The notes under the pieces were generated by a model. It did not search any database, was not told where the DNA came from, and was given only the letters and a program-made list of their open reading frames with translations. Shown here one piece after another: positions 223 to 15,628 of a stretch of 32,529 bases of DNA. The position numbers were made by a program, and so were the translations under genes. The DNA comes from Flavobacteria bacterium RIFCSPLOWO2_12_FULL_35_11 (GTDB taxonomy: Bacteria; Bacteroidota; Bacteroidia; Flavobacteriales; Flavobacteriaceae), in assembly GCA_001800975.1 (NCBI GenBank), contig MGWK01000045.1, forward strand, positions 1-32,529, given 5' to 3'. The stretch's first letter is position 1; each line of letters opens with the position of its first letter.

Positions 223-1050
223 TTGAAAGCACTTCTGCACACTTCCTATATTACAGTAATGGTTTTAATTACATTTATTGTAACTATTTATTTAATTTAT
301 GTGGGTTATAGTTATTATAATACCTCATTAGAAGAACGGTTTTATCACCCAAACCATACATGGTTTAAATCAAGTGGTATTTATGGACAAGGTTTAGGCA
401 TTATTGGGACATTCATGATTTTGTTTGGTGTTTCTATATATATAGCCCGTAAACGTTACAACTTCTTGGCTAAATATATACGCTTAAAATATTTATTGGA
501 ATTCCATATTTTTTTATGCACACTCGGACCTATTTTGGTGATTTTTCACACAACTTTTAAATTTAACGGCATTGTGTCTATTGCTTTTTGGAGTATGGTG
601 GCTGTTGTATTTAGTGGCGTTGTTGGCAGATTTATTTACATACAAATACCAAGGACTATAGAAGGCAGGGAATTAAGTTTGGGTGAAGTACAAAACATGA
701 AGACCGACTTAGCTTTTGTTTTAAACGAAAAATTTAAACTGGACTCAAATATAATAGACTTGATTGTGAGTTTGACAAACGACCAAAATGCAACTGGTCA
801 TAAAATAACGGTATGGAGTTTAAGAAAGGCTTTAAGATTAAAAAAAATACCAAAATTAGAACGAGCAGCCATTATAAAAATGGTAAAAAAAGAAAAATCG
901 CTCTCACGTAAAATTGCCAGATTACAAACGATGCAGCAACTTTTTAAATACTGGCATGTGGCGCATTTGCCTTTTGCGATTATTATGCTTATCATTTTGA
1001 TTATACATGTTGGGGTTACATTGACATTTGGCTATAAATGGATATTTTGA
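223..1050 (+). CDS. di-haem cytochrome b-like membrane protein
   Basis: Integral inner-membrane protein, 275 residues, with five predicted helices at about residues 9-31, 53-75, 90-112, 117-143 and 244-272. Two histidine pairs, H95/H109 and H248/H262, are each 14 residues apart on two helices, the spacing expected for two stacked b haems in a four-helix bundle of the NarI/ferric-reductase kind. A basic loop of about 100 residues (144-243) separates the last two helices. The start shown is TTG; an in-frame TAG at 208-210 excludes anything further upstream, and the first ATG is at 259 (MVLITF), which would still leave a usable first helix. It is the first gene of the redox cluster and overlaps the flavoprotein gene. 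I infer it passes electrons between that flavoprotein, quinone and the multihaem cytochromes. No TAnnTTTG box is clear upstream; an AT-only palindrome sits at 172-183. Confidence 0.8.
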   Translation: MKALLHTSYITVMVLITFIVTIYLIYVGYSYYNTSLEERFYHPNHTWFKSSGIYGQGLGIIGTFMILFGVSIYIARKRYNFLAKYIRLKYLLEFHIFLCTLGPILVIFHTTFKFNGIVSIAFWSMVAVVFSGVVGRFIYIQIPRTIEGRELSLGEVQNMKTDLAFVLNEKFKLDSNIIDLIVSLTNDQNATGHKITVWSLRKALRLKKIPKLERAAIIKMVKKEKSLSRKIARLQTMQQLFKYWHVAHLPFAIIMLIILIIHVGVTLTFGYKWIF

Positions 1051-2387
1051 TGAATGAAGTACTTATAGAAGAAATCGTAATTTATGGAACTGTATTTTTA
1101 ATATGCTTCATCACCATCTTTTTTTATCTGAGGAAGAAAAGAGTAAAATCGATGGTTGTTGAAAAAAAAGTCGCCATAGCTAAAGAAGAAGGTTTGTATG
1201 AACCTGTTTCATTGCATCCTTATATTGACTTAAATATATGCATTGGAAGTGCGGCATGTGTTGCGGATTGCCCAGAAAAAGATATTTTAGGAATTGTTAA
1301 CGGTAAAGCCACTGTGATCCAAACATCAAATTGCGTAGGTCATGGAGCCTGCTTTCACGCCTGTCCGGTAGAAGCTATTTCACTTAGTATAGGTACAGAA
1401 ACCAGGGGTGTCGATTTGCCGCACATCAATCAAAATTTTGAAACCAATAACAAAGGAATATACATTGCCGGAGAGTTGGGTGGGATGGGATTGATAAAAA
1501 ATAGTGTTGAACAAGGTCAGCAAGCTATTGAAAGCATCGTAAAAAATAAAAAACCATCAAAAGAAAATGTAATTGATGTAGTCATTATTGGTGCAGGACC
1601 TGCGGGTATTTCAGCATCATTGGCTGCAAAAAAATATGGCTTATCCTCCATTACTTTAGAACAAGACTCATTGGGTGGAACCGTTTATACTTTTCCCCGA
1701 AAAAAAATAGTGATGACTGCTCCTATGGATTTACCCTTATATGGTAAAGTAAAATTATTTGAAACTTCAAAAGATGAATTACTTCAATTGTGGAAAAAAG
1801 TGATTGCGGCCCATGATTTAAAAATTGTTGAAAATACAAAAGTCGAAATTATTATTCCTTCAGAAAATGACACTTTTAAAGTGATGACAAATACCGATGA
1901 AGAATACATTTGTAATAATGTGCTGCTTTCGATTGGAAGAAGAGGCAGTCCACGAAAATTAAATGTACTTGGAGAAGACTCGGAAAAAGTGGCCTATCGC
2001 TTAATAGAATCGGAAAGAATACAAAATCAAAATATTATTGTTGTAGGAGGTGGGGATTCTGCCATTGAATCTGTTCTACTCTTGAAAGATGCCAACAAGG
2101 TGACACTTTCTTATAGGAGCGACAAGTTTTCAAGATTGAAACCTAAAAATAGAATAAAAATTAATGAAGCCATTGAAAGCAAAATGGTTGAGGTGCTACT
2201 TAACTCAAATTTAATTTCCATAAATGAAAAAAACGTAATTATTAACACTGCTGAAAGTGAAATTCCTATGGAAATTGAGAACGACCTGGTGTATATTTTT
2301 GCTGGCGGAGAATTGCCTACAGCCTTTTTGCAAAAGGCCGGAGTTGAAATTTCAAAACGATTTAATTATATCATGAAAAAACATTGA
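1038..2387 (+). CDS. membrane-tethered ferredoxin/FAD/NAD(P) oxidoreductase
   Basis: 449-residue redox protein. One N-terminal helix (about 13-30) followed by LRKKR puts the rest in the cytoplasm. A ferredoxin-like domain follows, with C68, C74, C78 and C99, C105, C109; the second cysteine of each usual CxxCxxCxxxCP motif is replaced by S71 and H102. Next comes GIYIAGE (140-146), which looks like the C-terminal FAD-contact segment of thioredoxin-reductase-type flavoproteins, then the FAD motif IGAGPAG (184-190) and the NAD(P) motif VGGGDSA (336-342). The motif order is therefore permuted. There is no CxxC redox disulfide. It likely takes electrons from NAD(P)H (or works in reverse) and exchanges them with the cytochrome b. 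The ATG at 1038 overlaps the previous gene by 13 bases; the ATG at 1050 overlaps its TGA by one base and is an equally good, translationally coupled start. Confidence 0.85.
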   Translation: MDILMNEVLIEEIVIYGTVFLICFITIFFYLRKKRVKSMVVEKKVAIAKEEGLYEPVSLHPYIDLNICIGSAACVADCPEKDILGIVNGKATVIQTSNCVGHGACFHACPVEAISLSIGTETRGVDLPHINQNFETNNKGIYIAGELGGMGLIKNSVEQGQQAIESIVKNKKPSKENVIDVVIIGAGPAGISASLAAKKYGLSSITLEQDSLGGTVYTFPRKKIVMTAPMDLPLYGKVKLFETSKDELLQLWKKVIAAHDLKIVENTKVEIIIPSENDTFKVMTNTDEEYICNNVLLSIGRRGSPRKLNVLGEDSEKVAYRLIESERIQNQNIIVVGGGDSAIESVLLLKDANKVTLSYRSDKFSRLKPKNRIKINEAIESKMVEVLLNSNLISINEKNVIINTAESEIPMEIENDLVYIFAGGELPTAFLQKAGVEISKRFNYIMKKH

Positions 2388-2396
2388 TAATTAGGA

Positions 2397-4235
2397 ATGC
2401 AACGGTTTTTTAAACATATTATCCTCCTATTTTTATTTAACGCCACTTATAACTATGCGCAAATTTCTCCTGGTGATTTAACTAGTGCTCATGCCAAGTT
2501 TGAAGGAATGAGCAATTGTACACTTTGCCATGATTTGGGAGCAAAAGTATCAAATACCAAATGTTTGGATTGCCATAAAGAAGTAAAAACCCTAATCACA
2601 CAAAAAAAAGGTTATCACTCAAGCACTGAAGTAAAAAATAAAGATTGTTTTAAATGTCATAGTGAGCATCACGGTCGCAAATTTGACATGGTTCGGTTTG
2701 ATGAGAAAAAATTTAATCATGAACTAACTGGCTACAAATTAGATGGAAAGCACGAAGTAATTGATTGCAAAAAATGCCATGTTTCAGACAATATTAAAAA
2801 TGTAGAACTTAAAAAAAGACCAAATACATTTCTTGGATTGGACACAAAATGTGCATCTTGCCATGATGATTATCATCAAAAAACAATGTCCTCCAATAAT
2901 TGTGCTTCTTGTCATAATACAGAGAAATTTAAACCTGCCATTAAATTCGACCATAATAAAGCAGATTTTAAATTAAAAGGCAAACACAAAATTCTAGATT
3001 GTAAAAAATGTCATGAAGTAAGCCTCAAGAATGGTAAAGATTTTCAAAAATTCAATAATATTCCTTTTGCCGACTGTAAATCTTGTCATAATGATCCTCA
3101 CAGTCAGCAAATTAAAGGTACTTGCACCCAATGCCATACGGAAGAATCATTTCTCACACTTAAAGCAAAAGAAAATTTTAATCACAACACCACAAATTTC
3201 AAATTAAAAGGCAGTCATCAAAAAACCGATTGTTTTAGTTGTCATGCTAAAACATCCAATCCTAAATTGGTTTTTCAAGATAAAACAGGCATTAATCAAA
3301 CAAATTGTGTTGCTTGCCATGAAGACCGTCATGAAGGAAAATTAGGCAACGAATGCTCAAAATGCCATAAAGAAGATAGTTTTTATTCCCAAAATTCACT
3401 TGAGTTTTTTGATCACAATAAAACTAATTTCCCACTGAAAGGAAAACATGAAAAAGTTGACTGTAAAAAATGCCATAAAGAAAGACTTACAAAAAAGATT
3501 GAATACACAAATTGCGCGAGCTGTCATGAAGATTACCATAAAAGTGAATTCAAAAAAAATAATGTATTGCCAGACTGCAAAGAATGCCATACAACAGAAA
3601 GTGGTTTCAAAAATAGTTTATTCACTTTGGAAAAGCATGAAAAAACAGCATTTCCGCTTGAAGGTGCGCATGTTGCAACACCTTGCTTTGCTTGCCACGT
3701 AAGTGAACCCGAAAAAAGGTGGACTTTTAAAAATAAAGGAACTAAATGTGTAGATTGTCATAAAGATCTCCATAAAACATACATTCCAGAAACGTATTAT
3801 CCAGTTCAAAATTGTAAAACTTGCCATAGCAATAAATCTTGGTCCTCTGTGAAATTTGACCATAATAAAACAAAATGGCCGCTGGAAGGCAAGCATTTAG
3901 ATACCGATTGTAGGGCTTGCCATTTTAAAAATAAGGACAAAGCAGGAAAATATATTCAAAAATTTACCAAACTAGAAAGTACTTGTGTAAACTGCCATGA
4001 AAGCAAACATGGAAATCAATTTGCAATAAATGGCGTAACGGATTGTGTAAGATGTCATATTTTTAAGAGCTGGGTTCCAGAAAAATTTGATCACAATACT
4101 ACGGAATTTCCTTTAGAAGGTAAACATATTGAAGTAAAATGCAGTCAATGTCATATAGTAGCTGCATTAGATAAAAATAGGACTAGTTTTAATTATAAAA
4201 TTGAAAAACACCAATGTATAGACTGTCATCAATAA
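2397..4235 (+). CDS. 23-haem c-type cytochrome (c3/c7-like repeats)
   Basis: Secreted multihaem cytochrome of 612 residues with a signal peptide (MQRFFKHIILLFLFNATYNYAQ region, cleavage after about residue 22). I count 23 CXXCH haem-binding motifs, roughly one per 27 residues. Repeats carry the pattern FDHNxTxFPLxGKH followed by CxxCH; the extra histidines are suited to be distal haem ligands. The protein is rich in lysine, unlike the next cytochrome. The gene starts 9 bases after the flavoprotein stop. Its last haem motif (CIDCH) lies one residue before the stop and overlaps the start of the next gene. By analogy with c3/c7 cytochromes it is a periplasmic electron carrier; its place between the membrane oxidoreductase and the larger cytochrome suggests it bridges the two. 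No enzyme active site can be recognised. Confidence 0.93.
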   Translation: MQRFFKHIILLFLFNATYNYAQISPGDLTSAHAKFEGMSNCTLCHDLGAKVSNTKCLDCHKEVKTLITQKKGYHSSTEVKNKDCFKCHSEHHGRKFDMVRFDEKKFNHELTGYKLDGKHEVIDCKKCHVSDNIKNVELKKRPNTFLGLDTKCASCHDDYHQKTMSSNNCASCHNTEKFKPAIKFDHNKADFKLKGKHKILDCKKCHEVSLKNGKDFQKFNNIPFADCKSCHNDPHSQQIKGTCTQCHTEESFLTLKAKENFNHNTTNFKLKGSHQKTDCFSCHAKTSNPKLVFQDKTGINQTNCVACHEDRHEGKLGNECSKCHKEDSFYSQNSLEFFDHNKTNFPLKGKHEKVDCKKCHKERLTKKIEYTNCASCHEDYHKSEFKKNNVLPDCKECHTTESGFKNSLFTLEKHEKTAFPLEGAHVATPCFACHVSEPEKRWTFKNKGTKCVDCHKDLHKTYIPETYYPVQNCKTCHSNKSWSSVKFDHNKTKWPLEGKHLDTDCRACHFKNKDKAGKYIQKFTKLESTCVNCHESKHGNQFAINGVTDCVRCHIFKSWVPEKFDHNTTEFPLEGKHIEVKCSQCHIVAALDKNRTSFNYKIEKHQCIDCHQ

Positions 4236-7200
4236 TATTTGGTTTACTCATGAGTATGCAAATATTTGCGCAATCTCCTCACGGAGAAGCGTTGAAAATT
4301 GATTGTGCAAAGTGTCACAATCCAGAAAGTTGGTCCATAAATTTCAAAAAGATTGAATTTGATCATGAAAAATTAGCAGAATTTGCTTTGGAAGGAGCGC
4401 ATAAACAAGTTGATTGTAAACAGTGCCATTCAACATTGGTTTTTGATGAAGCCAAAACAGAATGCATCTCTTGTCATAAAGATATGCACAGTGGATCTGT
4501 TGGAAATGATTGTGTAAGATGCCACACCTCAAAATCATGGGTCGTTGATAACATTCCTGAATTACACGAGGAAAACGGTTTTGCACTTACAGGTTCTCAC
4601 AGCAATTTAAGTTGTACGGAATGCCATAAATCCGAAACCAATTTAAGGTTTGACAGAATTGGCAATGAATGCATAAGTTGCCATAGGAATGACTATTTAG
4701 ACTCGGAAAACCCAAATCATATAAGTGCAAATTACGCCACCAGTTGCACAGATTGCCACAACCCGCTTGCCACAGCATGGACACCAGCAACTTTTGATCA
4801 CGAAAAATTCCCTCTTACTTTAGGCCATGAGGTACAAGATTGTAAAAAATGCCACACAACAGCTTTATATGCAGATACTTCTTCAGAATGTGTTAGTTGT
4901 CATCAAAATGATTTTAACAAAACTACAAACCCAAATCATGAAAACGCCCAATTTACAACGGACTGTGTTTCATGCCATACAACAGATTTAGGTTGGACTC
5001 CTTCAAGTTATGATCACAACATTTTTCCGCTTACACTTGGTCACGATGTACAAGATTGTAAAGAATGCCATAAAACAACAAATTATTCCGACACTTCTTC
5101 GGAATGTGTTAGTTGCCATCAAACTCAATATGACAACACCGCAAATCCAAACCATCAAATAGCGGAATTTTCTACTGATTGCGCTTCATGCCATACCACA
5201 AGTCCCGATTGGAATCCTTCAACCTATGACCACCCAAAATTCTCATTAACACTTGGCCATGACATACAAGAATGTAATAAATGTCATACAACAACCAACT
5301 ATTCTGATATTTCTCCGGAATGCATCAGTTGTCATAAAACTGATTTTGATAACACAACAAACCCAAATCATGTAAATGCGGAATTCTCGACTGATTGCAT
5401 AACTTGCCATACTACAAATTCTGGTTGGAATCCTACTAGCTATAACCACAATATATTCCCGCTTACACTTGGACATGATATTCAGGATTGTAAGCAATGC
5501 CATACAACAGCCAATTATTCAGATGCTTCTTCTGAATGTGTTTCTTGTCACCAAACAGATTTCAACGCCACCACTAACCCGAACCATGTGAATTCTCAAT
5601 TCTCAACAGATTGCACAACATGCCATACCACCAGTGCTTGGAAACCTTCCAACTTTAACCATGATTTCTTTTCGCTTACATTGGGTCATGACATACAGGA
5701 TTGTACACAATGCCATACCTCTGGGGCTTATGCCGATGCTTCACCTGAATGTATAAGCTGTCACCAAACAGATTTCAATACCACCCAAAACCCAAATCAT
5801 GTAAGTACAGGCTTTTCTACAGATTGTAAAACGTGTCATACCACAAATCCTAATTGGACCCCAACAAATTGGAGCCACGATTTCTTTCCGCTTACTTTAG
5901 CCCATGACATTCAGGATTGTAACAAATGTCATACAACGGCGAATTATTCTGATACTTCATCTGAATGCGTTAGTTGCCACCAAACTGATTTTAATAACAC
6001 GACAAATCCGAATCACTCCAGTGCAGGTTTTTCTGCGGATTGCAAAACTTGTCATACCACAAATCCTAATTGGACCCCTGCAAATTGGAATCATAATTTT
6101 TTCCCTTTAAATCTAGGTCACAATATTCAAGATTGCAGAAAATGCCATACAAATAATAATTATTTAACAACCTCTTCTGAATGTGTAAGTTGTCATCAAT
6201 CAGATTTTAATGCCACGGTAAATCCTAATCATAATAATGCAGGATTTTCTACTGATTGTAAATCATGCCATACTACCAGACCTGATTGGAATCCGACAAA
6301 TTGGAGGCATGACATTTTTCCGCTCACTTTAGCCCACGATTTGCCAAATTGTAACCAATGCCATACAACAGCTAATTTTAAGGATACCTCATCTGAATGT
6401 GTTAGTTGCCACCAATCTGATTTTAACAATACCACAAATCCTAATCACATAAGTACAGGTTTTTCAACAAATTGTGTTACTTGTCATACCACAAATCCTA
6501 ATTGGACACCTTCAAGTTGGAATCACAATAGTATTTATCCTTTAAATGGAGCGCATGCTACTATTGCAACGGATTGTGCTTCTTGCCACAAAGGAAACTA
6601 CACGACAACACCTAACACTTGTGTTGGTTGTCACCTTGCGGATTTTAACAGTACCACAAATCCTAACCACAGTACTTCCAAATTTTCAACAGACTGTGTT
6701 ACCTGCAATACTGAAGGAAGTTGGGTTCCGTCTACTTTTAACCATGACTTTTTCCCGCTTACTTTGGGTCATGCAACACCTTCTTGTACGCAATGCCATA
6801 CAACGGGTAATTATGCTGATGCATCTCCAAATTGTGTAACTTGCCATCAGACTGATTTCAACACAACAACAAATCCAAATCACATAAGTGCAGGTTTTCC
6901 AACGGATTGTGTTACTTGTCATACCACAAATCCAAATTGGACGCCTACTACATTTAACCACAATAGCTTTTATCCGTTAAATGGCGCTCATGCTGCTATT
7001 GCCAATAATTGCGTTACTTGTCACAACGGAAATTACAACACAACCCCTAATACGTGTGTTGGCTGCCACCTTTCGGATTATAACGGTACCACAAATCCTA
7101 ACCACAGTACGCTAAAATTTTCAACAGACTGTGTTACCTGCCATACTGAAGGAAGTTGGACGCCATCAACCTTTAACCATGACGGGCAATATTTCCCAAT

Positions 7201-7399
7201 TTATTCCGGAGAACATCAAGGAGAATGGAATGCTTGTACCGATTGCCATACAAACACAAGTAATTATGCTGTTTTTGCTTGTATAAATTGCCATGAGCAT
7301 AACAATAAAACTGAAGTGGATAATGATCACCAGGGAGTCAATAATTACGCTTATAACAGTAATGCCTGTTACTCATGTCACCCAGATGGAAAAGACTAA
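4214..7399 (+). CDS. 42-haem giant repeat cytochrome c
   Basis: 1061-residue secreted cytochrome with a signal peptide ending in IFAQ (about residue 20). I count 42 intact CXXCH motifs plus one degenerate site, CVTCN at residues 828-832. After an N-terminal part resembling the preceding cytochrome, the body is a tandem array of a ~72-residue unit with three haem motifs, spaced (F/Y)xLTLGHDIQDC - CVSCHQTDF - TTNPNH - DCxTCHTT. Units near the C-terminus alternate with a variant containing PLNGAHA and TPNTCVGCH, forming a 145-residue super-repeat. The protein is rich in Thr, Asn and Ser and poor in lysine. The ATG at 4214 lies inside the end of the previous gene; the next in-frame Met would destroy the signal peptide, so the 22-base overlap is probably real. 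A regular haem chain of this length is best explained as a molecular wire or electron store; surface or periplasmic location is undetermined. Confidence 0.93.
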   Translation: MYRLSSIIFGLLMSMQIFAQSPHGEALKIDCAKCHNPESWSINFKKIEFDHEKLAEFALEGAHKQVDCKQCHSTLVFDEAKTECISCHKDMHSGSVGNDCVRCHTSKSWVVDNIPELHEENGFALTGSHSNLSCTECHKSETNLRFDRIGNECISCHRNDYLDSENPNHISANYATSCTDCHNPLATAWTPATFDHEKFPLTLGHEVQDCKKCHTTALYADTSSECVSCHQNDFNKTTNPNHENAQFTTDCVSCHTTDLGWTPSSYDHNIFPLTLGHDVQDCKECHKTTNYSDTSSECVSCHQTQYDNTANPNHQIAEFSTDCASCHTTSPDWNPSTYDHPKFSLTLGHDIQECNKCHTTTNYSDISPECISCHKTDFDNTTNPNHVNAEFSTDCITCHTTNSGWNPTSYNHNIFPLTLGHDIQDCKQCHTTANYSDASSECVSCHQTDFNATTNPNHVNSQFSTDCTTCHTTSAWKPSNFNHDFFSLTLGHDIQDCTQCHTSGAYADASPECISCHQTDFNTTQNPNHVSTGFSTDCKTCHTTNPNWTPTNWSHDFFPLTLAHDIQDCNKCHTTANYSDTSSECVSCHQTDFNNTTNPNHSSAGFSADCKTCHTTNPNWTPANWNHNFFPLNLGHNIQDCRKCHTNNNYLTTSSECVSCHQSDFNATVNPNHNNAGFSTDCKSCHTTRPDWNPTNWRHDIFPLTLAHDLPNCNQCHTTANFKDTSSECVSCHQSDFNNTTNPNHISTGFSTNCVTCHTTNPNWTPSSWNHNSIYPLNGAHATIATDCASCHKGNYTTTPNTCVGCHLADFNSTTNPNHSTSKFSTDCVTCNTEGSWVPSTFNHDFFPLTLGHATPSCTQCHTTGNYADASPNCVTCHQTDFNTTTNPNHISAGFPTDCVTCHTTNPNWTPTTFNHNSFYPLNGAHAAIANNCVTCHNGNYNTTPNTCVGCHLSDYNGTTNPNHSTLKFSTDCVTCHTEGSWTPSTFNHDGQYFPIYSGEHQGEWNACTDCHTNTSNYAVFACINCHEHNNKTEVDNDHQGVNNYAYNSNACYSCHPDGKD
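4670..7069 (+). repeat. tandem ~216-bp coding repeat, three haems per unit
   Basis: The C(V/I)SCH, CVTCH or CVGCH anchor codon falls at 4670, 4889, 5105, 5321, 5537, 5750, 5966, 6182, 6398, 6620, 6833 and 7055. The intervals are 219, 216, 216, 216, 213, 216, 216, 216, 222, 213 and 222 bases, all multiples of three. Similarity is high at the DNA level, especially from 5500 to 6500, so unit number could change by recombination without breaking the frame. Confidence 0.9.
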
Positions 7400-7405
7400 A
7401 CAGAG

Positions 7406-9031
7406 ATGAAAAATATTTTAATTTTTATAGTATTTCTAAGTTTATATTGCCCAAAAAGTTTTGGGCAAGAGCGCAATGGTGTGCTAAAAGGAAAAGTATC
7501 CTTTGTAACGTCCCAAAATGTTTATGTTAAATTTGAAAATACAGAAAACATACAAATTGGTGATACTTTAAAAATTGCAAGCAATATCAGTCCTTGTATT
7601 GTAGTCAATAATAAATCTTCCAATTCTTGTGTAGGTATATTAATTAATGGTTGTGAGGTAAAAAAGGATGATGATATCATATTTGCATATATAATCATAA
7701 ATGAAGCTGTGAAAGTTTTAAATGATAATTTAGATAAAATTACTGATTCTACTGCTATTAAAACCAATACATCTGTAACTAAAAACACGGAAGACTCAAA
7801 GGATTTAGAAAGAATTTCAGGGAATTTTTCTATTGCAACCTATAGCAATCATTACAATATCAGAGATGACAGGCATAGATTAATGTCGCGTTTTTCTATT
7901 TATGCTGACCACATCAACAATTCAAAATTTTCTTTTGAAACTTATTTAAATTACAACAAGGAAATTTTTTCGGGAACAAATGGCGGAACGGCTAACCAAA
8001 ATCCTTTTAAAGTTTATGATTTGGCTTTAAAATATGATGCAACCCCAACCCTATCAATCGCCCTTGGCAGAAAAATAAATAATAATATGTCATCCGTAGG
8101 TGCCATTGACGGATTGCAAGTTGAAAAATATTTTGGTAAAAATTATGTAGGCGTTATTACCGGATTTAGACCTGATATTTATGATTATGGTTTTAATTCG
8201 AATTTATTTCAATATGGTGCTTATTTTGGCAGAAGTGTGAATAACGAAAATTTAAGTGCGCAAACAACATTAGGAATTATAGAACAACAAAATAGCGGAC
8301 AAATAGACAGAAGGTACACATATTTCCAACACTCAAGTACACTTTTTAATTCGCTAAATCTTTTCTCATCTTTTGAACTGGATATTTATAACAATATCAC
8401 AAGTGATAAATTTAGACTAACCAACCTTTATTTATCTGCCAGATACAGATTCAGCAGTAAATTTAATTTAGGATTGTCTTATGATTCAAGAAAAAATGTG
8501 ATTTATTATGAAACCTTCCAAACTGAAATTGAACGATTGCTTGCCGATGACATTGCACGCCAAGGATTAAGATTTAACGTAAATGCAAGACCAATTAAAT
8601 ATGTAAATACCGGATTCAGCTATAGCCAAAGATTTCAAAGTGACAACCTAAATAAATCAGACAATATGAATGGATTTTTAAGTTTATCCAAAATACCGGC
8701 TTTAGATGGTTCCTTGTCCATTAATTATAATATGAACGCATCAAATTATTTAGAAAGCAGTATCATATCTTTCAGGCATTCAAGAACTTTTTTTAAAGAC
8801 AAACTATTTGCTGATTTTTATTATAGGATTGTGGATTACAACTACTTAAACAATAATATAACTGCAAGCAAACAAAATTATTATGGGGCAGATCTTTCCT
8901 TGAATATTGGAAGAAAATTAATGTTAAGTCTCTCAGGCGAATATTTAACTAGTGATTTAGAAAATAATTATAGAATAAATACAAGAATTGTAAAACGATT
9001 TAACAACCAAAAAAAGAAAAATAAATTATGA
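7406..9031 (+). CDS. outer-membrane beta-barrel protein of the cytochrome cluster
   Basis: 541-residue protein with a signal peptide (about 1-20, ending SFGQ). Residues 21-110 form a small beta-rich domain with VLKGKVSFVTSQNVYVKF and three cysteines (about 64, 74 and 82), not arranged as CXXC or CXXCH. From about 135 to the end the sequence alternates polar and hydrophobic or aromatic residues in many short strands separated by turns, as in outer-membrane barrels; the last strand is TRIVKRF, followed by a lysine-rich tail instead of a terminal aromatic residue. I do not recognise a named family. It starts 6 bases after the 42-haem cytochrome and overlaps the lipoprotein gene by 4. By position it could be the porin that lets the cytochrome cross or reach the outer membrane, as MtrB does in Mtr conduits, but this is inference; no sequence likeness to MtrB is claimed. 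Confidence 0.75.
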   Translation: MKNILIFIVFLSLYCPKSFGQERNGVLKGKVSFVTSQNVYVKFENTENIQIGDTLKIASNISPCIVVNNKSSNSCVGILINGCEVKKDDDIIFAYIIINEAVKVLNDNLDKITDSTAIKTNTSVTKNTEDSKDLERISGNFSIATYSNHYNIRDDRHRLMSRFSIYADHINNSKFSFETYLNYNKEIFSGTNGGTANQNPFKVYDLALKYDATPTLSIALGRKINNNMSSVGAIDGLQVEKYFGKNYVGVITGFRPDIYDYGFNSNLFQYGAYFGRSVNNENLSAQTTLGIIEQQNSGQIDRRYTYFQHSSTLFNSLNLFSSFELDIYNNITSDKFRLTNLYLSARYRFSSKFNLGLSYDSRKNVIYYETFQTEIERLLADDIARQGLRFNVNARPIKYVNTGFSYSQRFQSDNLNKSDNMNGFLSLSKIPALDGSLSINYNMNASNYLESSIISFRHSRTFFKDKLFADFYYRIVDYNYLNNNITASKQNYYGADLSLNIGRKLMLSLSGEYLTSDLENNYRINTRIVKRFNNQKKKNKL

Positions 9032-9846
9032 ATTCAAAACTAAAATTACCAGTTTACTTAACCGTTATTTTGTTAAGTATTTTTGCTTGCAACAATGGCC
9101 CGAAAGTAATCACTTCATCAAGTGATCAACCAAAAAATGAGTCAAAAACAGGAATATTTTCGGATGAATCGCCTACTGAATTAAGTAGTGCTGACAATTC
9201 AACCTCAAATGATGCTTTACATACCGTTAAAGTTAATGAAATACTTCCATCATCAAAATATTTATACATTAATGTGAATGAAGAAGGTGTTGAAGAACCA
9301 TTTTGGATTGCTACCCGCATCATGGATATCAATGTGGGCGAAATCTATTTTTATAATGGCGGTTTGCTTAAAACCAATTATGAAAGTAAAGAATATAATA
9401 AAGTCTTTGAGAAGATTTATTTAATTTCTTCCAATTTAGTACCGGCAGACCACGCCAATAACCCTGGCCTTTTGGAAAAAAGCAATGCAACAACCGTGAA
9501 GCCTAAATTAAAAAATTTACCAAAACCAATTTCATCACCTGTAAAAATAGTTACGGTAAAAGGATCGGTAAAAATTGCAGAATTGGTTAAGAATTTTAAA
9601 AAACACGAAGGAAAAACCATACAAATAAGTGGTGTTTGCGTAAAAATAAATGCCAATATTATGGGTAAAAACTGGATTCATCTTAAAGACGGCAGCAAAG
9701 ATGAATATGATCTGGTTGTTACTTCCAATGAAATTATAAATGAAGGAACAATTGTAACTATAAAGGCAAAAGTAGCTTTAAACAAGGATTTTGGAGCAGG
9801 TTATAAATATGATTTAATTTTAGAAGAAGGTGTGGTTATTCATTAA
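9028..9846 (+). CDS. OB-fold lipoprotein
   Basis: 272-residue lipoprotein: hydrophobic signal and lipobox SIFAC with C21 as the lipidated residue. A Ser/Asn-rich linker follows. Residues about 65-150 (YLYINVNEEGVEEPFWIAT, then VGEIYFYNGG) resemble the small beta domain of NrfJ-like proteins found beside cytochrome c genes. Residues about 180-272 form a second OB-like domain with GKTIQISGVCVKIN, MGKNWIHLKDG and KDFGAGYKYD. ATGA overlap with the barrel gene indicates translational coupling. Its role is unknown; likely options are a lipid-anchored accessory that helps assemble or hold the cytochromes, or a chaperone for them. It lacks a CXXCH motif and I see no clear haem ligand pair. Confidence 0.75.
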   Translation: MNSKLKLPVYLTVILLSIFACNNGPKVITSSSDQPKNESKTGIFSDESPTELSSADNSTSNDALHTVKVNEILPSSKYLYINVNEEGVEEPFWIATRIMDINVGEIYFYNGGLLKTNYESKEYNKVFEKIYLISSNLVPADHANNPGLLEKSNATTVKPKLKNLPKPISSPVKIVTVKGSVKIAELVKNFKKHEGKTIQISGVCVKINANIMGKNWIHLKDGSKDEYDLVVTSNEIINEGTIVTIKAKVALNKDFGAGYKYDLILEEGVVIH

Positions 9847-9896
9847 AAGTAACTTGGCAGAAAAACAAAAATCACAAAAATTTTACCACTAATTTT

Positions 9897-12800
9897 ATGA
9901 AGAAATATCTTACAAAAGCCAAAAATATTTTAGCACCAATTTTTAATACAAGAGCAGCTGGTGCTTATATGTTATTGTTTGCAATTGCCATTGGTGTTGC
10001 CACATTTATAGAAAATGATTTTGGAACCAGTTCAGCCCAAAAAATTGTGTTTAAATCTTGGTGGTTTGAACTTTTACTGACGCTATTCAGCATAAGTATT
10101 GTGGTGAACATTTTTCAATTTAATATGGTTAAACAAAAGAAATGGACACTGCTTCTTTTTCATTCCGCAATTGTAATTATAGTAATAGGTGCCGGCGTTA
10201 CAAGATATTTTGGATTTGAAGGAATCATGCATATTAGAGAAAATGAAACTTCTAACAGTTTTCTTTCGGCCAATACTTTTTTAAAATTTAAGGTGCTTAA
10301 AAATAATGAAAATTTTGATTTTGATGAAGAAGTCCTTTTTGCATCTTTAGGCAATAATAATTGGCACAACTCCTACTTAATTGGAACTGATTTAATTGAT
10401 GTCACCGTTAAAAAATTCATCCCAAATCCAATTCAAAAATTAAATGCAAGTCCTAACGGAAAACCAACATTAAAAATTGTGGTTGCAGGAATGGGAGGAC
10501 GCGAAGAATATATTTTAAGCAAAGGTGATACAGAAAGGTTTGGAAACTTGGTGTACAATTTTAATGAAAATGAAATTCCAGGAGCAATAAATATTATTTA
10601 TAAAAATGATTCCTTGTTTTTTAAAACGGACAAAGTTTTTTCACAAATGGTCATGGCAACACAAACAAAAGATACCATTTATCCCTCAGCAAATTACAAG
10701 CCTTTAATGTTGCGTTCTTTATATTCAGACGGAATGAATAATTTTGTTTTGCCAGAATTTAATAAAAGTAGTGAAGTCACCATAGATTCAGAGGACCCCA
10801 AAGTAAAAAACACCAGCAAGAATGGGATTTTAATAGAAATTACAGTTAACGGAAAAACCAAAGAAACTTACGTTTATGAAAACAAAGGATCTGAAGGAAA
10901 TCCTGTTGAACTTAATTTTGAGAATTTAAATTTATTGGTTTCTTTTGGCGCAAAAGAACAAACCCTGCCCTTTTCAATTAAGTTAAAAAAGTTTATTATG
11001 GATAAATATCCGGGAACGGAAAGTGCGTCTTCTTATGCAAGTGAAGTTCAATTGTTAGACAACAACAATACTTTTATAAAGGATTTTCGCATTTATATGA
11101 ACAATATTTTAACGCATAATGGCTACCGCTTTTTCCAATCGTCTTTTGATCAGGATGAAAAAGGCACTTACCTAAGTGTTAACAACGATTTTTGGGGAAC
11201 TTTGATATCTTATATTGGTTATATTGTACTAACTATAGGAATGCTTTTAACTTTTTTTAATAAAAAAACGAGGTTTCATCAATTAACACAAAAAATTAAA
11301 AAATTAAGGGAAAATACCGCTTCTACCCTGTTTCTTCTCTTTTTTCTGTTTTCTTCAACCTTATTATTTTCGCAAACACAAGAAAATTCTGTCAATTTAA
11401 ATCATGTTGTTAGTCTTGACCATGCCAATAAATTCAGCAAACTTGTTGTGCAGGATTTTAGAGGAAGGATGAAACCTGTTCATACTTTATCGAGGGAAAT
11501 TTTAAGAAAATTATCAAAGAAGGAATCCTTTAACGGATTAAGTGCCGATCAGGTTATTTTGAGTATGTATGCCAATCCGGGTGATTGGACTGGAGAAAAA
11601 ATTATTAAATTGGGAAAACATGAAGATATTAAACGAAAATTAGGGGTAACAAATGATTTTATTTCTTACAGAGATTTCTTTTCAGAGAATGGGGATTATA
11701 AATTAAGGGATGTTGTGGCTGAAGCCAATGGATTAAAACCTATGGATAGAGGTGTTTATGAAAAAGAGCTGCTTAAATTAGATGAAAAACTTAACATTTT
11801 AAGTATGTTGTTTTCCGGAAGTTTATTAAAAATAATTCCTACTGCAAATGATCCCAATAATACCTGGGTTTCAACGGATACCCACAATCACGGCAACGAA
11901 AGTCATCAAGAAAACACAATAGCCCCTAAATTTTTTAACGCATATAGCTTGGGGCTCCAGAAAGCCATTGAAACTAAGGATTATAGCTTTGTTGACACTG
12001 CTGTGAGTGAACTAAAGGCTTATCAAATTCAAGCTGGAGGTTCAATTATGCCATCCAATTCAAAAATTAATGCTGAAATATTTCTTAATAATTTTAATAT
12101 TTTTAGTCGTTTGGCAATTGTCTATATACTGCTCGGATTGGCATTTTTGTTTTTCTTGTTCTTATCTGTTTTCAGACCAAAAATAAATTTAAATAAAATT
12201 TACAAAATATTATTCCTGTTGGTTTTAATAGGCTTTGCCTGTCATACTGTCGGACTCGGAATAAGATGGTATGTTTCGGGCAGGGCACCTTGGAGTAATG
12301 GTTACGAATCCATGATTTATATAGCTTGGACTTCAACGCTGGCAGGTATTTTATTTACAAGAAAATCATTTGGAGGTTTGGCGGCAACCATGGTTTTAGC
12401 GGCTACAATTCTCATGGTTTCCACTTTAAGTTTTTTAGATCCTGAAATTACGCCATTGGTGCCAGTTTTAAAATCTTATTGGTTAACCATACACGTTTCT
12501 TTGGAAGCCGGCAGCTACGGTTTTTTAATGTTAGGAGCCATAATAGGATTAATGAATTTAACGCTTATGATTTTTCTAAATGAATCAAATAAAAATAATA
12601 TTAAAAGAATTATTCAAGAAATGTCGTATATCAGCGAAATGACCTTGATAGGAGGATTATTTATGCTAAGTATTGGAACTTATTTAGGCGGTGTTTGGGC
12701 AAATGAATCTTGGGGAAGATATTGGGGATGGGACGCAAAAGAAACTTGGGCGCTTGTCTCAATTCTTGTTTATGCGTTTATATTGCACATGAGATTAATC

Positions 12801-13025
12801 CCAAAATTAAATGGATTATTCTCTTATAATGTAGCCACTATTTTTGGGTTGGGCTCTGTGGTAATGACTTATTATGGCGTAAACTATTACCTGTCCGGAC
12901 TCCATTCTTATGCAACTGGCGATCCAATTCCAATTCCAAATTGGGTGTATGTTTTTGTGGTTTACATCATAATTTTAAGTACGCTCGCCTATTTAAAAAA
13001 GAGAAAATTCAAAATAATTTCTTAA
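9897..13025 (+). CDS. ccsBA: fused cytochrome c synthetase CcsBA (system II)
   Basis: 1042-residue membrane protein that exports haem and joins it to CXXCH motifs on the outer face of the inner membrane. The N-terminal half is ResB/CcsB-like: three helices within residues 20-105, a long periplasmic domain, and a helix at about 415-440. A second hydrophobic stretch at about 470-487 precedes a periplasmic region (about 490-725). The CcsA core follows with the WWD haem-handling motif WGRYWGWDAKETW (939-951) and conserved-type histidines H783, H866 and H1003. A His-rich stretch, THNHGNESHQ, begins near residue 662. The gap to the lipoprotein gene is 50 bases, so it probably belongs to the same operon and serves the 65 haem sites encoded upstream. 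Whether the genome also has a housekeeping CcsBA cannot be seen here. Confidence 0.95.
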   Translation: MKKYLTKAKNILAPIFNTRAAGAYMLLFAIAIGVATFIENDFGTSSAQKIVFKSWWFELLLTLFSISIVVNIFQFNMVKQKKWTLLLFHSAIVIIVIGAGVTRYFGFEGIMHIRENETSNSFLSANTFLKFKVLKNNENFDFDEEVLFASLGNNNWHNSYLIGTDLIDVTVKKFIPNPIQKLNASPNGKPTLKIVVAGMGGREEYILSKGDTERFGNLVYNFNENEIPGAINIIYKNDSLFFKTDKVFSQMVMATQTKDTIYPSANYKPLMLRSLYSDGMNNFVLPEFNKSSEVTIDSEDPKVKNTSKNGILIEITVNGKTKETYVYENKGSEGNPVELNFENLNLLVSFGAKEQTLPFSIKLKKFIMDKYPGTESASSYASEVQLLDNNNTFIKDFRIYMNNILTHNGYRFFQSSFDQDEKGTYLSVNNDFWGTLISYIGYIVLTIGMLLTFFNKKTRFHQLTQKIKKLRENTASTLFLLFFLFSSTLLFSQTQENSVNLNHVVSLDHANKFSKLVVQDFRGRMKPVHTLSREILRKLSKKESFNGLSADQVILSMYANPGDWTGEKIIKLGKHEDIKRKLGVTNDFISYRDFFSENGDYKLRDVVAEANGLKPMDRGVYEKELLKLDEKLNILSMLFSGSLLKIIPTANDPNNTWVSTDTHNHGNESHQENTIAPKFFNAYSLGLQKAIETKDYSFVDTAVSELKAYQIQAGGSIMPSNSKINAEIFLNNFNIFSRLAIVYILLGLAFLFFLFLSVFRPKINLNKIYKILFLLVLIGFACHTVGLGIRWYVSGRAPWSNGYESMIYIAWTSTLAGILFTRKSFGGLAATMVLAATILMVSTLSFLDPEITPLVPVLKSYWLTIHVSLEAGSYGFLMLGAIIGLMNLTLMIFLNESNKNNIKRIIQEMSYISEMTLIGGLFMLSIGTYLGGVWANESWGRYWGWDAKETWALVSILVYAFILHMRLIPKLNGLFSYNVATIFGLGSVVMTYYGVNYYLSGLHSYATGDPIPIPNWVYVFVVYIIILSTLAYLKKRKFKIIS

Positions 13026-13046
13026 ATTTCATTAACCAATAGCTAC

Positions 13047-13088
13047 AAATGGCTGTCGAATCTACAAAAGAATCTACAGCCATTTTTT
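13047..13088 (+). terminator. rho-independent terminator of the redox operon
   Basis: Perfect 10-bp stem aaatggctgt (13047-13056) with acagccattt (13076-13085); the inner loop can pair further (cgaatct/agaatct region is partly symmetric). A run of six T (13083-13088) ends it. It lies 22 bases after the ccsBA stop. Confidence 0.8.
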
Positions 13089-13120
13089 AATAATAAAACT
13101 ACCTGTTTCAAAATATTTTG

Positions 13121-13200
13121 GGTGTTCCCGCTAAAAAGCGGTCGGGCTTTACGTTCCAAACCGTCATTGCGAGCCGAGCGTGGCAATCTTTTGAACATAT
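13121..13200. repeat. intergenic palindromic repeat remnants
   Basis: Two pieces of sequence typical of dispersed repeats in Bacteroidota genomes: ggtgttcccgct with a ccgct/agcgg hairpin (13128-13141) and tcgggcttt, then cattgcgagccgagcgtggc, which has attgc/gcaat ends. An apparent 63-codon frame across it (13122-13313) has no coding character and translates to the well-known SLRAERGNL-type repeat artefact. Family membership rests on recollection of such repeats, not on a search. Confidence 0.55.
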
Positions 13201-13272
13201 TCCTTAACAAACTCGCAACGCCGGGTTTTCCACTTCAATCCCTAACACAATTAGAATTAATATTCAATAATT

Positions 13273-13770
13273 TTATTTTTGCTTTTTTGAAAATAAAATT
13301 TGAAAACCAATAGCAATTGTGGCCGATACAAAACTAAAAGTCATCAATGTTCCCGAAAATATTACCACATATTTAAACCAGGTGATACCGCTCCAAAGCA
13401 TATAAATACCACCAAAAGTTAAAATGATGGATAAAAAAGGCTCTATCATTAAAAAATATTTAAACTTTTTATTGATGGAAGTTGTGGCAAGAATTAAGGA
13501 AAGCATAAAGAAAATGACCGATAAGGAAAGAATATGGTTATGGACAACCGTCAAAATCTCTCCTTCACTTTTTTTGAATTTCATGACTTCAGCGGCTTCA
13601 TCATTTTCATTTCCTAAATAATGACTTTCAATTTCCGAAGAGTTCATGGAAGTCGTATTGTTTACAAAACTCAATCCGCCATAAAAACCAACACTAAGTA
13701 CGATTATAAATACTAAAATAAGTGATTTTATTTCTTTTGGAAATTGGTGTATGATCCCGTGAATTTGCAT
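13273..13770 (-). CDS. small four-helix membrane protein of unknown function
   Basis: 165 residues with helices at about 16-33, 78-98, 105-125 and 132-157 and a soluble loop (35-75) between the first two. A HNH triplet (about residues 75-77) precedes the second helix; histidines there could bind metal or haem but nothing proves it. I do not recognise the family. Its ATG overlaps the stop of the FMN-binding protein gene (TAATG), so the two are translationally coupled and presumably act together. A fragment of a second copy lies at 1-122. The gene converges on the cytochrome operon, with terminator and repeats between them. Confidence 0.75.
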   Translation of the reverse strand: MQIHGIIHQFPKEIKSLILVFIIVLSVGFYGGLSFVNNTTSMNSSEIESHYLGNENDEAAEVMKFKKSEGEILTVVHNHILSLSVIFFMLSLILATTSINKKFKYFLMIEPFLSIILTFGGIYMLWSGITWFKYVVIFSGTLMTFSFVSATIAIGFQILFSKKQK

Positions 13771-14294
13771 TATAGTTGTTTTTTATTGTGTAATATTGTG
13801 ACTGTTTTCAGCAGTTTATTTACTTCATTGGTTATCGATTTTGCTGAAATTGTTGCTCCGGAAATTGCTGCAATGTCTTTTTGATAGGTTAAATTTTCAG
13901 TTGTTTTTTTTCCATTAAACTGATTCAACCATCGCTTGCTCCCCACTTCTGAACCGTGATCTTCCCTATAAACCAAAACTTTTACTTTTGAAACAATAAG
14001 GTCTTTGTCAAAAATAACAATAAAATCGAAATAATCGGCTTTTCCAAAAGCCTGTCCAAAATAATAATAGCCCACTATTTTTTCTTCATTTTTTATTTTA
14101 AAGAAATTGGTGTCATCAATTTTTATTGGTAGCGTTTTATTTACTTCCGAAGAAACAGAAATTGGCTGCTTTGAATATTTTACCAAATTAAACACCGTTT
14201 TTATTTCTTTTTCAATCAATGCTTCAATCTTTTTGTTTGTTGTGAAGCTTGAAATTAAAAGTACTATGATGGCTAGAAAGGCTATTTTTTTCAT
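13770..14294 (-). CDS. FMN-binding domain protein (RnfG/NqrC-type flavinylation motif)
   Basis: About 174 residues with an N-terminal signal or anchor (MKKIAFLAIIVLLISSF). The FMN-binding domain carries ISGATISAKS near the C-terminus, matching the SGATxS motif whose Thr is linked to FMN by ApbE in RnfG and NqrC relatives, and the YREDHGSEVGSKRWL segment common upstream of it. It therefore probably carries covalent FMN outside the cytoplasm and shuttles electrons. The start at 14294 puts the signal peptide at residue 1; an in-frame ATG at 14315 would add MPFHMYK. It follows the porin gene after a 209-base gap filled by an inverted-repeat element and is coupled to the membrane-protein gene downstream. 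The electron partner is unknown. Confidence 0.82.
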   Translation of the reverse strand: MKKIAFLAIIVLLISSFTTNKKIEALIEKEIKTVFNLVKYSKQPISVSSEVNKTLPIKIDDTNFFKIKNEEKIVGYYYFGQAFGKADYFDFIVIFDKDLIVSKVKVLVYREDHGSEVGSKRWLNQFNGKKTTENLTYQKDIAAISGATISAKSITNEVNKLLKTVTILHNKKQL

Positions 14295-14333
14295 TTTATA
14301 CATGTGAAATGGCATTAAAAATAATGATGATTA

Positions 14334-14491
14334 AATGAGGCTGCCTTAAAAGTCGGCTTAACCGCAATGTTCGCAAAGAAGGTGCAATGCTCGCAATGTG
14401 TTAAGTTATTAAAATCAGCACTTTGCGTTCCTTGCGAAAAACCTAGCGTCCCTCGCGGTTAAAAAATGAAATCTTTTTATACAGCCTCATT
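14334..14491. repeat. 158-bp inverted-repeat (MITE-like) element
   Basis: Ends are perfect inverted repeats: aatgaggctg (14334-14343) and cagcctcatt (14482-14491). Inside, ttaaccgcaatgttcgcaaa and the region ending ctcgcggttaa (to 14461) form an imperfect second inversion, so the whole element could fold into a long hairpin. Motifs of the cgcaaag/ctttgcg kind are typical of dispersed non-coding repeats in Bacteroidota. It sits between the porin gene and the FMN-binding gene and holds no plausible gene. Confidence 0.7.
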
Positions 14492-14503
14492 ATAATTTAT
14501 GTT

Positions 14504-15628
14504 TTAGAATGAAACCGCGACGCCGGCATTAAATTGTTTTGCTGTATCGCTGCCTGCAACTGCATTGTTCATTAACTGATAATCTATTTTAAAAGCAGCG
14601 CCATTCGCCACTTTATAATTCAATCCAAAAATAATTTCATCTCTGTCAAAAGCGTCATTGGCCACTAAAGTTCCTGCTGTTTCAGCGTGGGTATTGTGTT
14701 TTTCATAACGTAAAAACGGTGTTAGTTTTTCTACGCCCTTTAAATCAAAACTATACGCCACTTCGCCATATAAACCGTACATTTCTGAACCTAAATCTTT
14801 GCCTGTTAGCAGATTGTAATCTTCCGTATCTGTTAAATTTGTGTGAATGTACTGACCTCTTAACTCCAAATTATTGTATTTATAACGTGCATCCAACCCT
14901 ATCATTGAAATACCTACTGTTGATGCTTCAATGGAAGCATCATCCGTTTGGGTTTTTCCAAAATAACCAGCCAATCCCAATCTAAGTCCGGTAATTCCGT
15001 AATAATCCAATTTGGCTGATAAATTTGGTGAATTCACCACAGATTCTGCCCCTTTTTGACGGCCTTTTCGGAATCCGTCCGTTCCACGCAATATTCCTGC
15101 ACCAGCAGCATACGATTTAAATCCGTTAAATAAATACGCTTGATATTTTAGCGATGCGTTGTCTATTTTTCCAGAAAACCCAATACTGATCTCTCTCCAG
15201 GTTGTTGGCACAATATAATTATCAACATTCGGACGCTCTACGCCATAAAACGTGGTTGGTTCGTGAAATTCATTGATAATTCCCATCGGCACCAACATTA
15301 AACCGGCCAAAACATTGAAATTTTCGTTTGCTTTGTACTTTAAATAAGCTTGTTCAACGTAAACTTCTGAAACGTGTTCATATTCAATTTCTGACATAAA
15401 ACTTACTTTTTCGTTGAATTTGTATCCTAAAAACATCACCATTCTGTGGACATCTAATTTTCCGGGCGCTGAACCATCAGGTTCGTTATAATCTATTTGG
15501 GCATATCCGCCAATTGATACGCCTTCTGAAATTATAGTTCCCAAATTTTGGGTGTTTTCATCTGAATTTTCTTGAGCAAATCCTATGAAACCAATTAATA
15601 ATGCTGCGAATAATCTTATATTTTTCAT
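14504..15628 (-). CDS. outer-membrane porin (OprO/OprP-like)
   Basis: 374 residues with a signal peptide (MKNIRLFAALLIGFIGFAQ). The remainder is a sequence of short amphipathic beta strands: GYAQIDYN, MVMFLGYKFNEKVSFMSEI, YVEQAYLKY, LRLGLAGYFGK, ELRGQYIHT, ending in VAVSF with the C-terminal Phe typical of porins. The N-terminal half, with VEQAYLKY and the MLVPMGIINEFHEP segment, resembles phosphate-selective porin O/P family proteins. The substrate cannot be told from sequence. It is the first gene of an apparent operon with the FMN-binding and membrane-protein genes, though a repeat element separates them. Palindromes at 15721-15756 and a -7 box at 15685-15692 lie upstream. Confidence 0.85.
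   Translation of the reverse strand: MKNIRLFAALLIGFIGFAQENSDENTQNLGTIISEGVSIGGYAQIDYNEPDGSAPGKLDVHRMVMFLGYKFNEKVSFMSEIEYEHVSEVYVEQAYLKYKANENFNVLAGLMLVPMGIINEFHEPTTFYGVERPNVDNYIVPTTWREISIGFSGKIDNASLKYQAYLFNGFKSYAAGAGILRGTDGFRKGRQKGAESVVNSPNLSAKLDYYGITGLRLGLAGYFGKTQTDDASIEASTVGISMIGLDARYKYNNLELRGQYIHTNLTDTEDYNLLTGKDLGSEMYGLYGEVAYSFDLKGVEKLTPFLRYEKHNTHAETAGTLVANDAFDRDEIIFGLNYKVANGAAFKIDYQLMNNAVAGSDTAKQFNAGVAVSF

Follow-up and report, generated by a model that had tools for sequence, protein, structure and literature searches.

PCC3, a putative porin-cytochrome conduit of Fe(II)-oxidizing and other Proteobacteria (He et al. 2017, PMC5566968), is described as a four-gene system without a flavoprotein and has been called functionally unverified (PMC12442390). 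According to the former account, the inner-membrane proteins of PCC3 and PCC4 have five helices; the fourth carries SGxxG, and there is an HX13H pair on each of helices 3 and 5. These proteins have been likened to ferric reductase/NOX and cytochrome b proteins (PMC5566968). We analyzed a 32,529-nucleotide stretch of DNA from Flavobacteria bacterium RIFCSPLOWO2_12_FULL_35_11 (contig MGWK01000045.1, positions 1 to 32,529; here called the window) and found on its + strand, at positions 223-13025, a packed seven-gene cluster to which PCC3 appears to be the closest described system, as judged by parts and motifs. The gene set very probably encodes a trans-envelope electron conduit, and the explanation that accounts best for the whole, a PCC3-type conduit that has an NAD(P)H entry of its own and more likely exports electrons, is a probable one.

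The window lies at the very start of its contig (G000:C45:1-32529) in a genome of 3.56 Mb. An earlier inspection of the letters alone, the sequence-only reading, had listed seven packed genes with 65 haem sites, and all of these open reading frames were found in place: a gene for a predicted di-haem cytochrome b (b), a gene for a membrane-anchored oxidoreductase (oxr), two multihaem cytochrome genes (MHC1 and MHC2), a barrel gene (recovered as such through a structural model), a lipoprotein gene, and a gene for CcsBA, recognized by ResB and Cytochrom_C_asm matches. Neighboring genes overlap by at most 22 bases or are separated by gaps of at most 50. The encoded CxxCH sites do number 65, with 23 at 2397-4235 and 42 at 4214-7399, whereas shuffled proteins of the same composition gave means of 0.3 and 0.5 and never more than 3. 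Chance or miscalled reading frames are ruled out by haem counts so far above those of the shuffled proteins, together with conserved homologues, and the presence of relatives across the family and phylum samples rules out a peculiarity of one genome.

As in PCC3, the gene for an outer-membrane barrel stands beside genes for multihaem cytochromes. The periplasmic cytochrome of PCC3, with about 21 to 27 haems (21, 24, and 27 are given for the inside cytochromes of Gallionellaceae; PMC10734462), is matched by MHC1, which mostly has 20 or 23 sites and is predicted to be periplasmic; the variable, repeat-built extracellular cytochrome is matched by MHC2, which has 10 to 82 sites and would occupy a similar place; and SGxxG with HX13H, as in the five-helix inner-membrane protein, occurs in the 78 b sequences compared here. 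There are also differences. PCC3 as described lacks a flavoprotein, whereas oxr was found in all 30 barrel-bearing genomes among 392; the haem numbers listed for extracellular cytochromes of Gallionellaceae (10-18, 26, 28, 29, 33, and 35; PMC10734462) do not follow a three-haem step, whereas those of MHC2 follow 10+3n; PCC3 porins are predicted to have up to 42 transmembrane segments, compared with about 22 modeled strands here; and the hosts are Proteobacteria in one case and Bacteroidota in the other, the likeness being one of described parts and motifs and not of sequence homology. The present cluster is distinct from PCC3 in its constant NAD(P)H-type flavoprotein, its three-haem ladder, and its linked, distinct CcsBA.

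MtrCAB, MtoAB, and PioAB also place a barrel beside multihaem wires, and the smallest MHC2 has ten haem sites, as does MtrA. Ten haems is the size that crosses the barrel in Mtr, a likeness to the smallest MHC2 of size only, and the Mtr entry protein is the quinol-oxidizing CymA; entry here would be through b and a flavoprotein, and MHC1 and most MHC2 proteins are far larger. The MtrA/DmsE profile TIGR03508 gave scores of 43.5 and 47.2 bits for the two window cytochromes, against a cut-off of 192.2, and found no match in the two ten-haem MHC2 proteins scanned, and both window cytochromes also lie far below the OmcA/MtrC profile cut-offs. The claim that this is a new conduit with a parts list unlike that of Mtr can be kept in its second half, but newness in kind is not supported, since PCC3 as portrayed in PMC5566968 also combines a porin, two very large cytochromes, and a two-haem inner-membrane protein of this kind. 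A seven-gene cluster in the anode-enriched metagenome-assembled genome 'Bacteroidetes_1', also from Bacteroidota, combines a barrel with large multihaem cytochromes and has been proposed for extracellular electron transfer; compared by its description, it differs in that all but one of its seven genes are for multihaem cytochromes (PMC8258643). Burkholderiales cytochromes of 24 and 49 haems, with insertions and deletions of haem domains (PMC7399161), may be relatives. Term searches for 'bacteroid' gave no hit in the main text of a large survey of cytochrome neighborhoods (PMC11475568) or in the searched text of a paper on bacteria that gather around cable bacteria (PMC11748539), and we found no description of this cluster in such openly licensed literature as our searches reached.

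The case for a dedicated entry from NAD(P)H begins with b (positions 223..1050, +), a predicted inner-membrane protein with two b haems and five helices, in keeping with its five hydrophobic regions, and with HX13H at residues 95/109 and 248/262 and SGxxG at 131. Its TTG start matches the starts of homologues in the alignment. At least two HX13H motifs plus SGxxG are present in all 78 sequences, and WX3HX13H is present in 77; residues H95, H109, H262, S131, G132, and G135 are invariant in this set, and H248 is kept in 77. The AlphaFold model of b was too weak for its fold to be compared with solved di-haem b proteins (b561/FRD/FdnI-like), and a sequence search of the PDB returned a single match, at an E value of 0.24.

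The next gene, oxr (1038..2387, +), encodes one N-terminal membrane segment followed by RKKR, a six-cysteine ferredoxin-like domain, and an FAD/NAD(P) Pyr_redox domain. All 82 sequences compared keep the six Fe-S cysteines, and the only other cysteine column kept in at least half of them is C23, within the membrane segment. The second ligand position of the first Fe-S motif (position 71) is occupied by serine in 66 sequences, threonine in 8, and cysteine in 8, and that of the second motif (position 102) is histidine in all 82; this pattern suggests [3Fe-4S] or otherwise unusual centers. Two better-known flavoproteins were considered and rejected as identities for oxr, which has no conserved redox-active CxxC: thioredoxin reductase (80.7 bits against a cut-off of 343.5) and the bacillithiol-disulfide reductase YpdA (148.3 bits against 339.9). 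Separately, reading frames of about 780 to 910 residues in a number of genomes (G062, G019, G366, G066, G342, G140, G224, G323, G179, and others) resemble oxr in its flavoprotein part alone, with matches that begin near position 121 and leave out the ferredoxin part; a Pseudoalteromonas plasmid protein encoded among glycosyltransferase genes may be of this kind.

More distant b homologues were found by tblastn (E values of 2e-8 to 0.1), and those on the six plasmids examined, from Methylophaga, Variovorax, Acetobacter, Qipengyuania, Spirosoma, and Bradyrhizobium (L089-L092, L094, and L095), all have at least two HX13H motifs, with SGxxG in four. On all six, the gene order is an oxidoreductase gene, b, and a seven-haem cytochrome gene; the Bradyrhizobium trio lies between gnd/zwf and tal. 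These trios and PCC4 resemble the present cluster in joining a redox protein, a b protein of the di-haem type, and a periplasmic-type multihaem cytochrome. They differ from it in the seven-haem size of the trio cytochrome and in the flavoprotein fold: the two trio oxidoreductases that were profiled combine FAD_binding_6, NAD_binding_1, and Fer2 (FAD/NAD/2Fe-2S). If the plasmid b proteins are true relatives, the pairing with an NAD(P)H flavoprotein would have arisen with two different flavoprotein folds, which would support NAD(P)H as the cytoplasmic partner of b.

Of the two cytochromes, both of the exported type, MHC1 (2397..4235, +), recognized by a signal-peptide-like N terminus and its CxxCH count, is of nearly fixed size, with 23 sites in 44 of 85 loci and 20 in 35 (79 of 85 together). 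MHC2 (4214..7399, +) is an array of three-haem units of about 72 to 75 residues, visible in the DNA as a 216-base tandem array at 4823..6515 (+) with 7.9 copies and 72% matches. It has 42 CxxCH sites and one degenerate site, site 34 (6695-6709), which reads CVTCN and aligns with an intact site in the nearest relative (L001). A special role for the number 42 was rejected, since 42 is 43 (10+3x11) minus the degenerate site; MHC2 of the nearest relative has 46 sites and is longer by one 75-residue unit. Non-motif histidines number 44 for the 42 motifs of MHC2 and 26 for the 23 motifs of MHC1, as would be expected of bis-histidine electron-transfer haems. MHC2 has on average 24.7 residues per haem, against 25.1 in MtrA (PMC7399161), a similarity that makes it look wire-like. 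A sequence search of the PDB with MHC2 gave no match.

The size of MHC2 follows a rule. From 117 non-redundant barrel loci, 26 were dropped (20 cut by contig ends, 5 without a cytochrome neighbor, and 1 with unread bases), and CX2CH, CX3CH, and CX4CH sites were counted in the cytochrome next to the barrel. In 90 of the 91 complete copies that remained, the count equals 10+3n; it ranges from 10 to 82 and occupies eighteen rungs (10, 13, 16, 19, 22, 25, 28, 31, 34, 37, 40, 43, 46, 49, 58, 61, 73, and 82). By CxxCH alone, 86 of 92 complete genes fall on this ladder; four of the other six are restored to it by a single CX3CH or CX4CH site, one contains unread letters, and the last (L063) is the lone exception in the wider count, with 23 sites in a gene that resembles MHC1. 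Six more clusters with more divergent barrel-sized genes have cytochromes of 22, 64, 25, 34, 25, and 28 sites, all on the ladder. The spacing from one haem to the third after it is most often 72, 73, or 75 residues. An SPHG start is found within the first 75 residues of 82 of 92 MHC2 genes, short and long, and the C termini are also alike; length thus appears to change by gain or loss of whole units in the middle, because short and long versions agree at both ends. Against the ladder stand L063 itself and three of the six divergent clusters (L142-L144), where the ladder cytochrome is separated from the barrel-sized gene by a gene with nine haem sites, a number off the ladder. A further set, the other ten cytochromes with at least 8 sites in these loci, served as a control; by CxxCH, six are on the ladder (19, 13, 10, 34, 10, and 10) and four off it (8, 9, 9, and 14), a set too small for a strong contrast. 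The MHC2 genes are mutually related, so their counts are not independent trials, yet the values span eighteen rungs.

The grouping of genes on which the sequence-only reading was built recurs in other genomes. A scan for the barrel family with one genome per species yielded 114 relatives, and 80 loci were retained. In 46 loci the sequence extends 9 kb or more upstream of the barrel; genes for b, oxr, and the cytochromes directly precede it in 44 of these, the exceptions being L055 and L063. That reading had named a barrel always found apart from cytochromes as evidence against its proposal; instead, the barrel adjoins a cytochrome gene in 112 of the 117 non-redundant loci. Of the five that remain, three lie at the edge of a contig, and two, L055 and L124, have room for a cytochrome gene and none there. 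L055, from an uncultured Eudoraea, has at 9923-15142 a shortened barrel frame, the lipoprotein gene, and the CcsBA gene, with no b, oxr, or cytochrome genes in the 10 kb before them, and is apparently a remnant of the cluster. The idea that the genes run in order from cytoplasm to outside did not hold as a rule: oxr follows the barrel in 8 of the 80 one-strand loci that show both and in seven more loci, and many loci carry CcsBA on the other strand. Some loci have an extra gene of about 200 residues between b and oxr, and the one copy scanned (L106) encodes a tetratricopeptide repeat protein. Because the gene set is kept while its order changes, joint function can be argued for rather than a frozen operon.

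An independent sample of the phylum (392 genomes of 179 genera, with a threshold of at least 450 bits for oxr) contained the barrel in 30 genomes (24 genera) and oxr in 39, and all 30 barrel genomes were among the 39 (hypergeometric probability, 3e-37, relatedness ignored). Eight of the nine genomes with oxr alone have a cytochrome of 20 or 23 haems and a larger one beside oxr; in seven of those eight the sequence runs past the larger cytochrome and contains a barrel-sized gene as well, and in the eighth (L136) the contig breaks inside the larger cytochrome. In the ninth (G290) the contig stops there, and two of the oxr-only loci (L138 and L140) have no recognizable b gene. Within the family to which the window belongs, the barrel was found in 23 of 395 genomes (17 of 203 genera) and in none of the 3 other genomes of its genus in the sample; the distribution is patchy. 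Carriers include Lutibacter (oceani), Maribacter, Arenibacter, Yeosuana, Aequorivita (antarctica), Ulvibacter, Phaeodactylibacter, and Maribellus, together with members of the Saprospiraceae, Cyclobacteriaceae, and Bacteroidales. Emticicia oligotrophica DSM 17448 has a complete cluster on its plasmid pEMTOL02, with the barrel gene annotated as encoding a hypothetical protein. Plasmid searches gave nothing beyond Emticicia for the barrel and, for MHC1, only partial matches besides Emticicia, with at most 42% query cover among the 25 of 34 matches listed. Beside the Emticicia cluster (L088, 7049-11671) are genes for a Rieske protein, a YceI-family protein, two barrels, a cytochrome-domain protein, and a sigma factor.

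Of the remaining three genes, that for the barrel would provide the outer-membrane passage and that for CcsBA the means of maturation. The barrel gene (7406..9031, +) encodes a predicted outer-membrane beta-barrel with an N-terminal beta domain of about 70 residues, in which two cysteines (64 and 83) are invariant among 20 sequences. No Pfam or NCBIfam profile matched at an E value of 0.1 or below. The AlphaFold model (pLDDT, 75.9) has about 22 long strands after the small N-terminal domain, with a weak stretch at 364-384, and a structure search returned only generic outer-membrane barrels (OccK, TonB-dependent receptors, and ushers), MtrB not being among the matches listed. The lipoprotein gene (9028..9846, +) adjoins the barrel and follows it in 61 of 69 loci with room; its C-terminal domain, labeled an OB-fold in the sequence-only reading, is a candidate for that fold. 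The gene for the cytochrome c synthase CcsBA (9897..13025, +) is represented at 33 of 38 loci scored. There are three CcsBA-type genes in the window's genome, and the two full-length paralogues score 800 and 755 bits against that of the cluster, whereas cluster-linked copies in 53 loci, those on the opposite strand included, score 1195-1735 bits. Because they outscore the paralogues, the linked copies form a subfamily of their own, presumably devoted to the cytochromes of the cluster.

We suggest that Oxr oxidizes NAD(P)H on the cytoplasmic side and passes electrons through FAD and then the Fe-S centers to the two haems of b, which would take them across the inner membrane to MHC1. With its 20 or 23 haems and near-fixed length, MHC1 would span the periplasm and deliver electrons to MHC2 and so through the barrel to an outside acceptor, which might be Fe(III), Mn(IV), humics, another cell, or an electrode; CcsBA would load the haems. 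Longer forms of MHC2 would carry added three-haem units and protrude further, either outside or into the periplasm. A fixed periplasmic span followed by a second wire with a free end would explain why haem number is constant in one cytochrome and variable in the other. The genes, the haem motifs, the conservation of motifs, the co-occurrence of the genes, and the 10+3n rule are observed. Cofactor loading, the locations (that of MHC2 included), the order of electron flow, its direction, and the acceptor are in this scheme predictions from sequence, and outward flow driven by NAD(P)H is somewhat better than an even prospect.

Three other explanations were considered. The same conduit might run inward, with Fe(II), a mineral, a cathode, or a neighboring cell as the donor, through MHC2, MHC1, and b to quinones or NAD(P)+. 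PCC3 has been hypothesized to feed the quinone pool from a donor outside the cell (as presented in PMC5566968 and PMC10734462), and such conduits can be bidirectional (according to PMC8258643). We nevertheless consider inward flow unlikely, since every one of the 30 barrel genomes in the sample also encodes a flavoprotein of the NAD(P) type and the reduction of NAD(P)+ from such donors would be uphill; furthermore, the Fe-S motifs of Oxr mostly lack the second cysteine (serine or threonine at position 71 in 74 of 82 sequences and histidine at 102 in all), which suggests relatively positive centers. Alternatively, the haem arrays might act as a periplasmic capacitor or redox buffer that stores electrons as oxygen fluctuates, the barrel serving something else. 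The very large number of haems, the wide variation of MHC2 beside an MHC1 of mostly 20 or 23, and the suggestion of such a role for similar cytochromes (in PMC7399161) would fit a store, as would the export signal of MHC2, in which nothing was seen beyond a Sec-type N terminus and no sorting tail was matched among Pfam and NCBIfam profiles; but the nearly constant adjacency of barrel and cytochrome genes noted above and the ten haems of the smallest MHC2, the size of a barrel-crossing wire and less like a store, make this quite improbable. Least probable is a reductase at the surface or in the periplasm that would use NAD(P)H to handle metals, as in Cu or Fe reduction, outside energy metabolism: copper genes lie near the related b trios in three of the six plasmids examined, but the cytochrome of those trios has seven haems, and no barrel gene was seen beside any of them.

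Other genes near the cluster and elsewhere in this genome may be recorded here. Directly after the cluster, on the - strand at 13273-15628, are genes for a small membrane protein (weak DUF2871 match), an RnfG-like FMN-binding protein of the exported type, and a Porin_O_P-like barrel; three genes similar in size and orientation also follow the cluster at L007. The genome encodes, on another contig (L134, 9351-10819; G000:C6), a second pair, in which a decahaem cytochrome is accompanied by a b protein of 190 residues that has SGxxG and two HX13H motifs, and a pair resembling it lies near the cluster at L120.

Taken further, and with slightly less than even confidence, the cluster may represent a Bacteroidota-wide form of NAD(P)H-driven extracellular electron transfer. 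Its last wire would consist of a decahaem core within the barrel, to which whole three-haem modules are added (10+3n, with n from 0 to 24); the length of this wire would be quantized, rapidly evolving, and tuned to habitat, up to a single protein of 82 haems. Bacteroidota abound in marine and fresh waters, where they are generally regarded as aerobic degraders of polymers. If the proposed conduit works as described, a part of this phylum, represented by 30 of 392 sampled genomes and by 23 of 395 in the window's family, would be able to trade electrons with its surroundings straight from NAD(P)H. The named strains that carry the cluster (Lutibacter oceani, Maribacter, Arenibacter, Yeosuana, Aequorivita antarctica, and Emticicia oligotrophica) make the proposal testable now, and the 10+3n ladder would offer natural wires of one design, from 10 to 82 haems, with which the effect of length on conduction could be measured.

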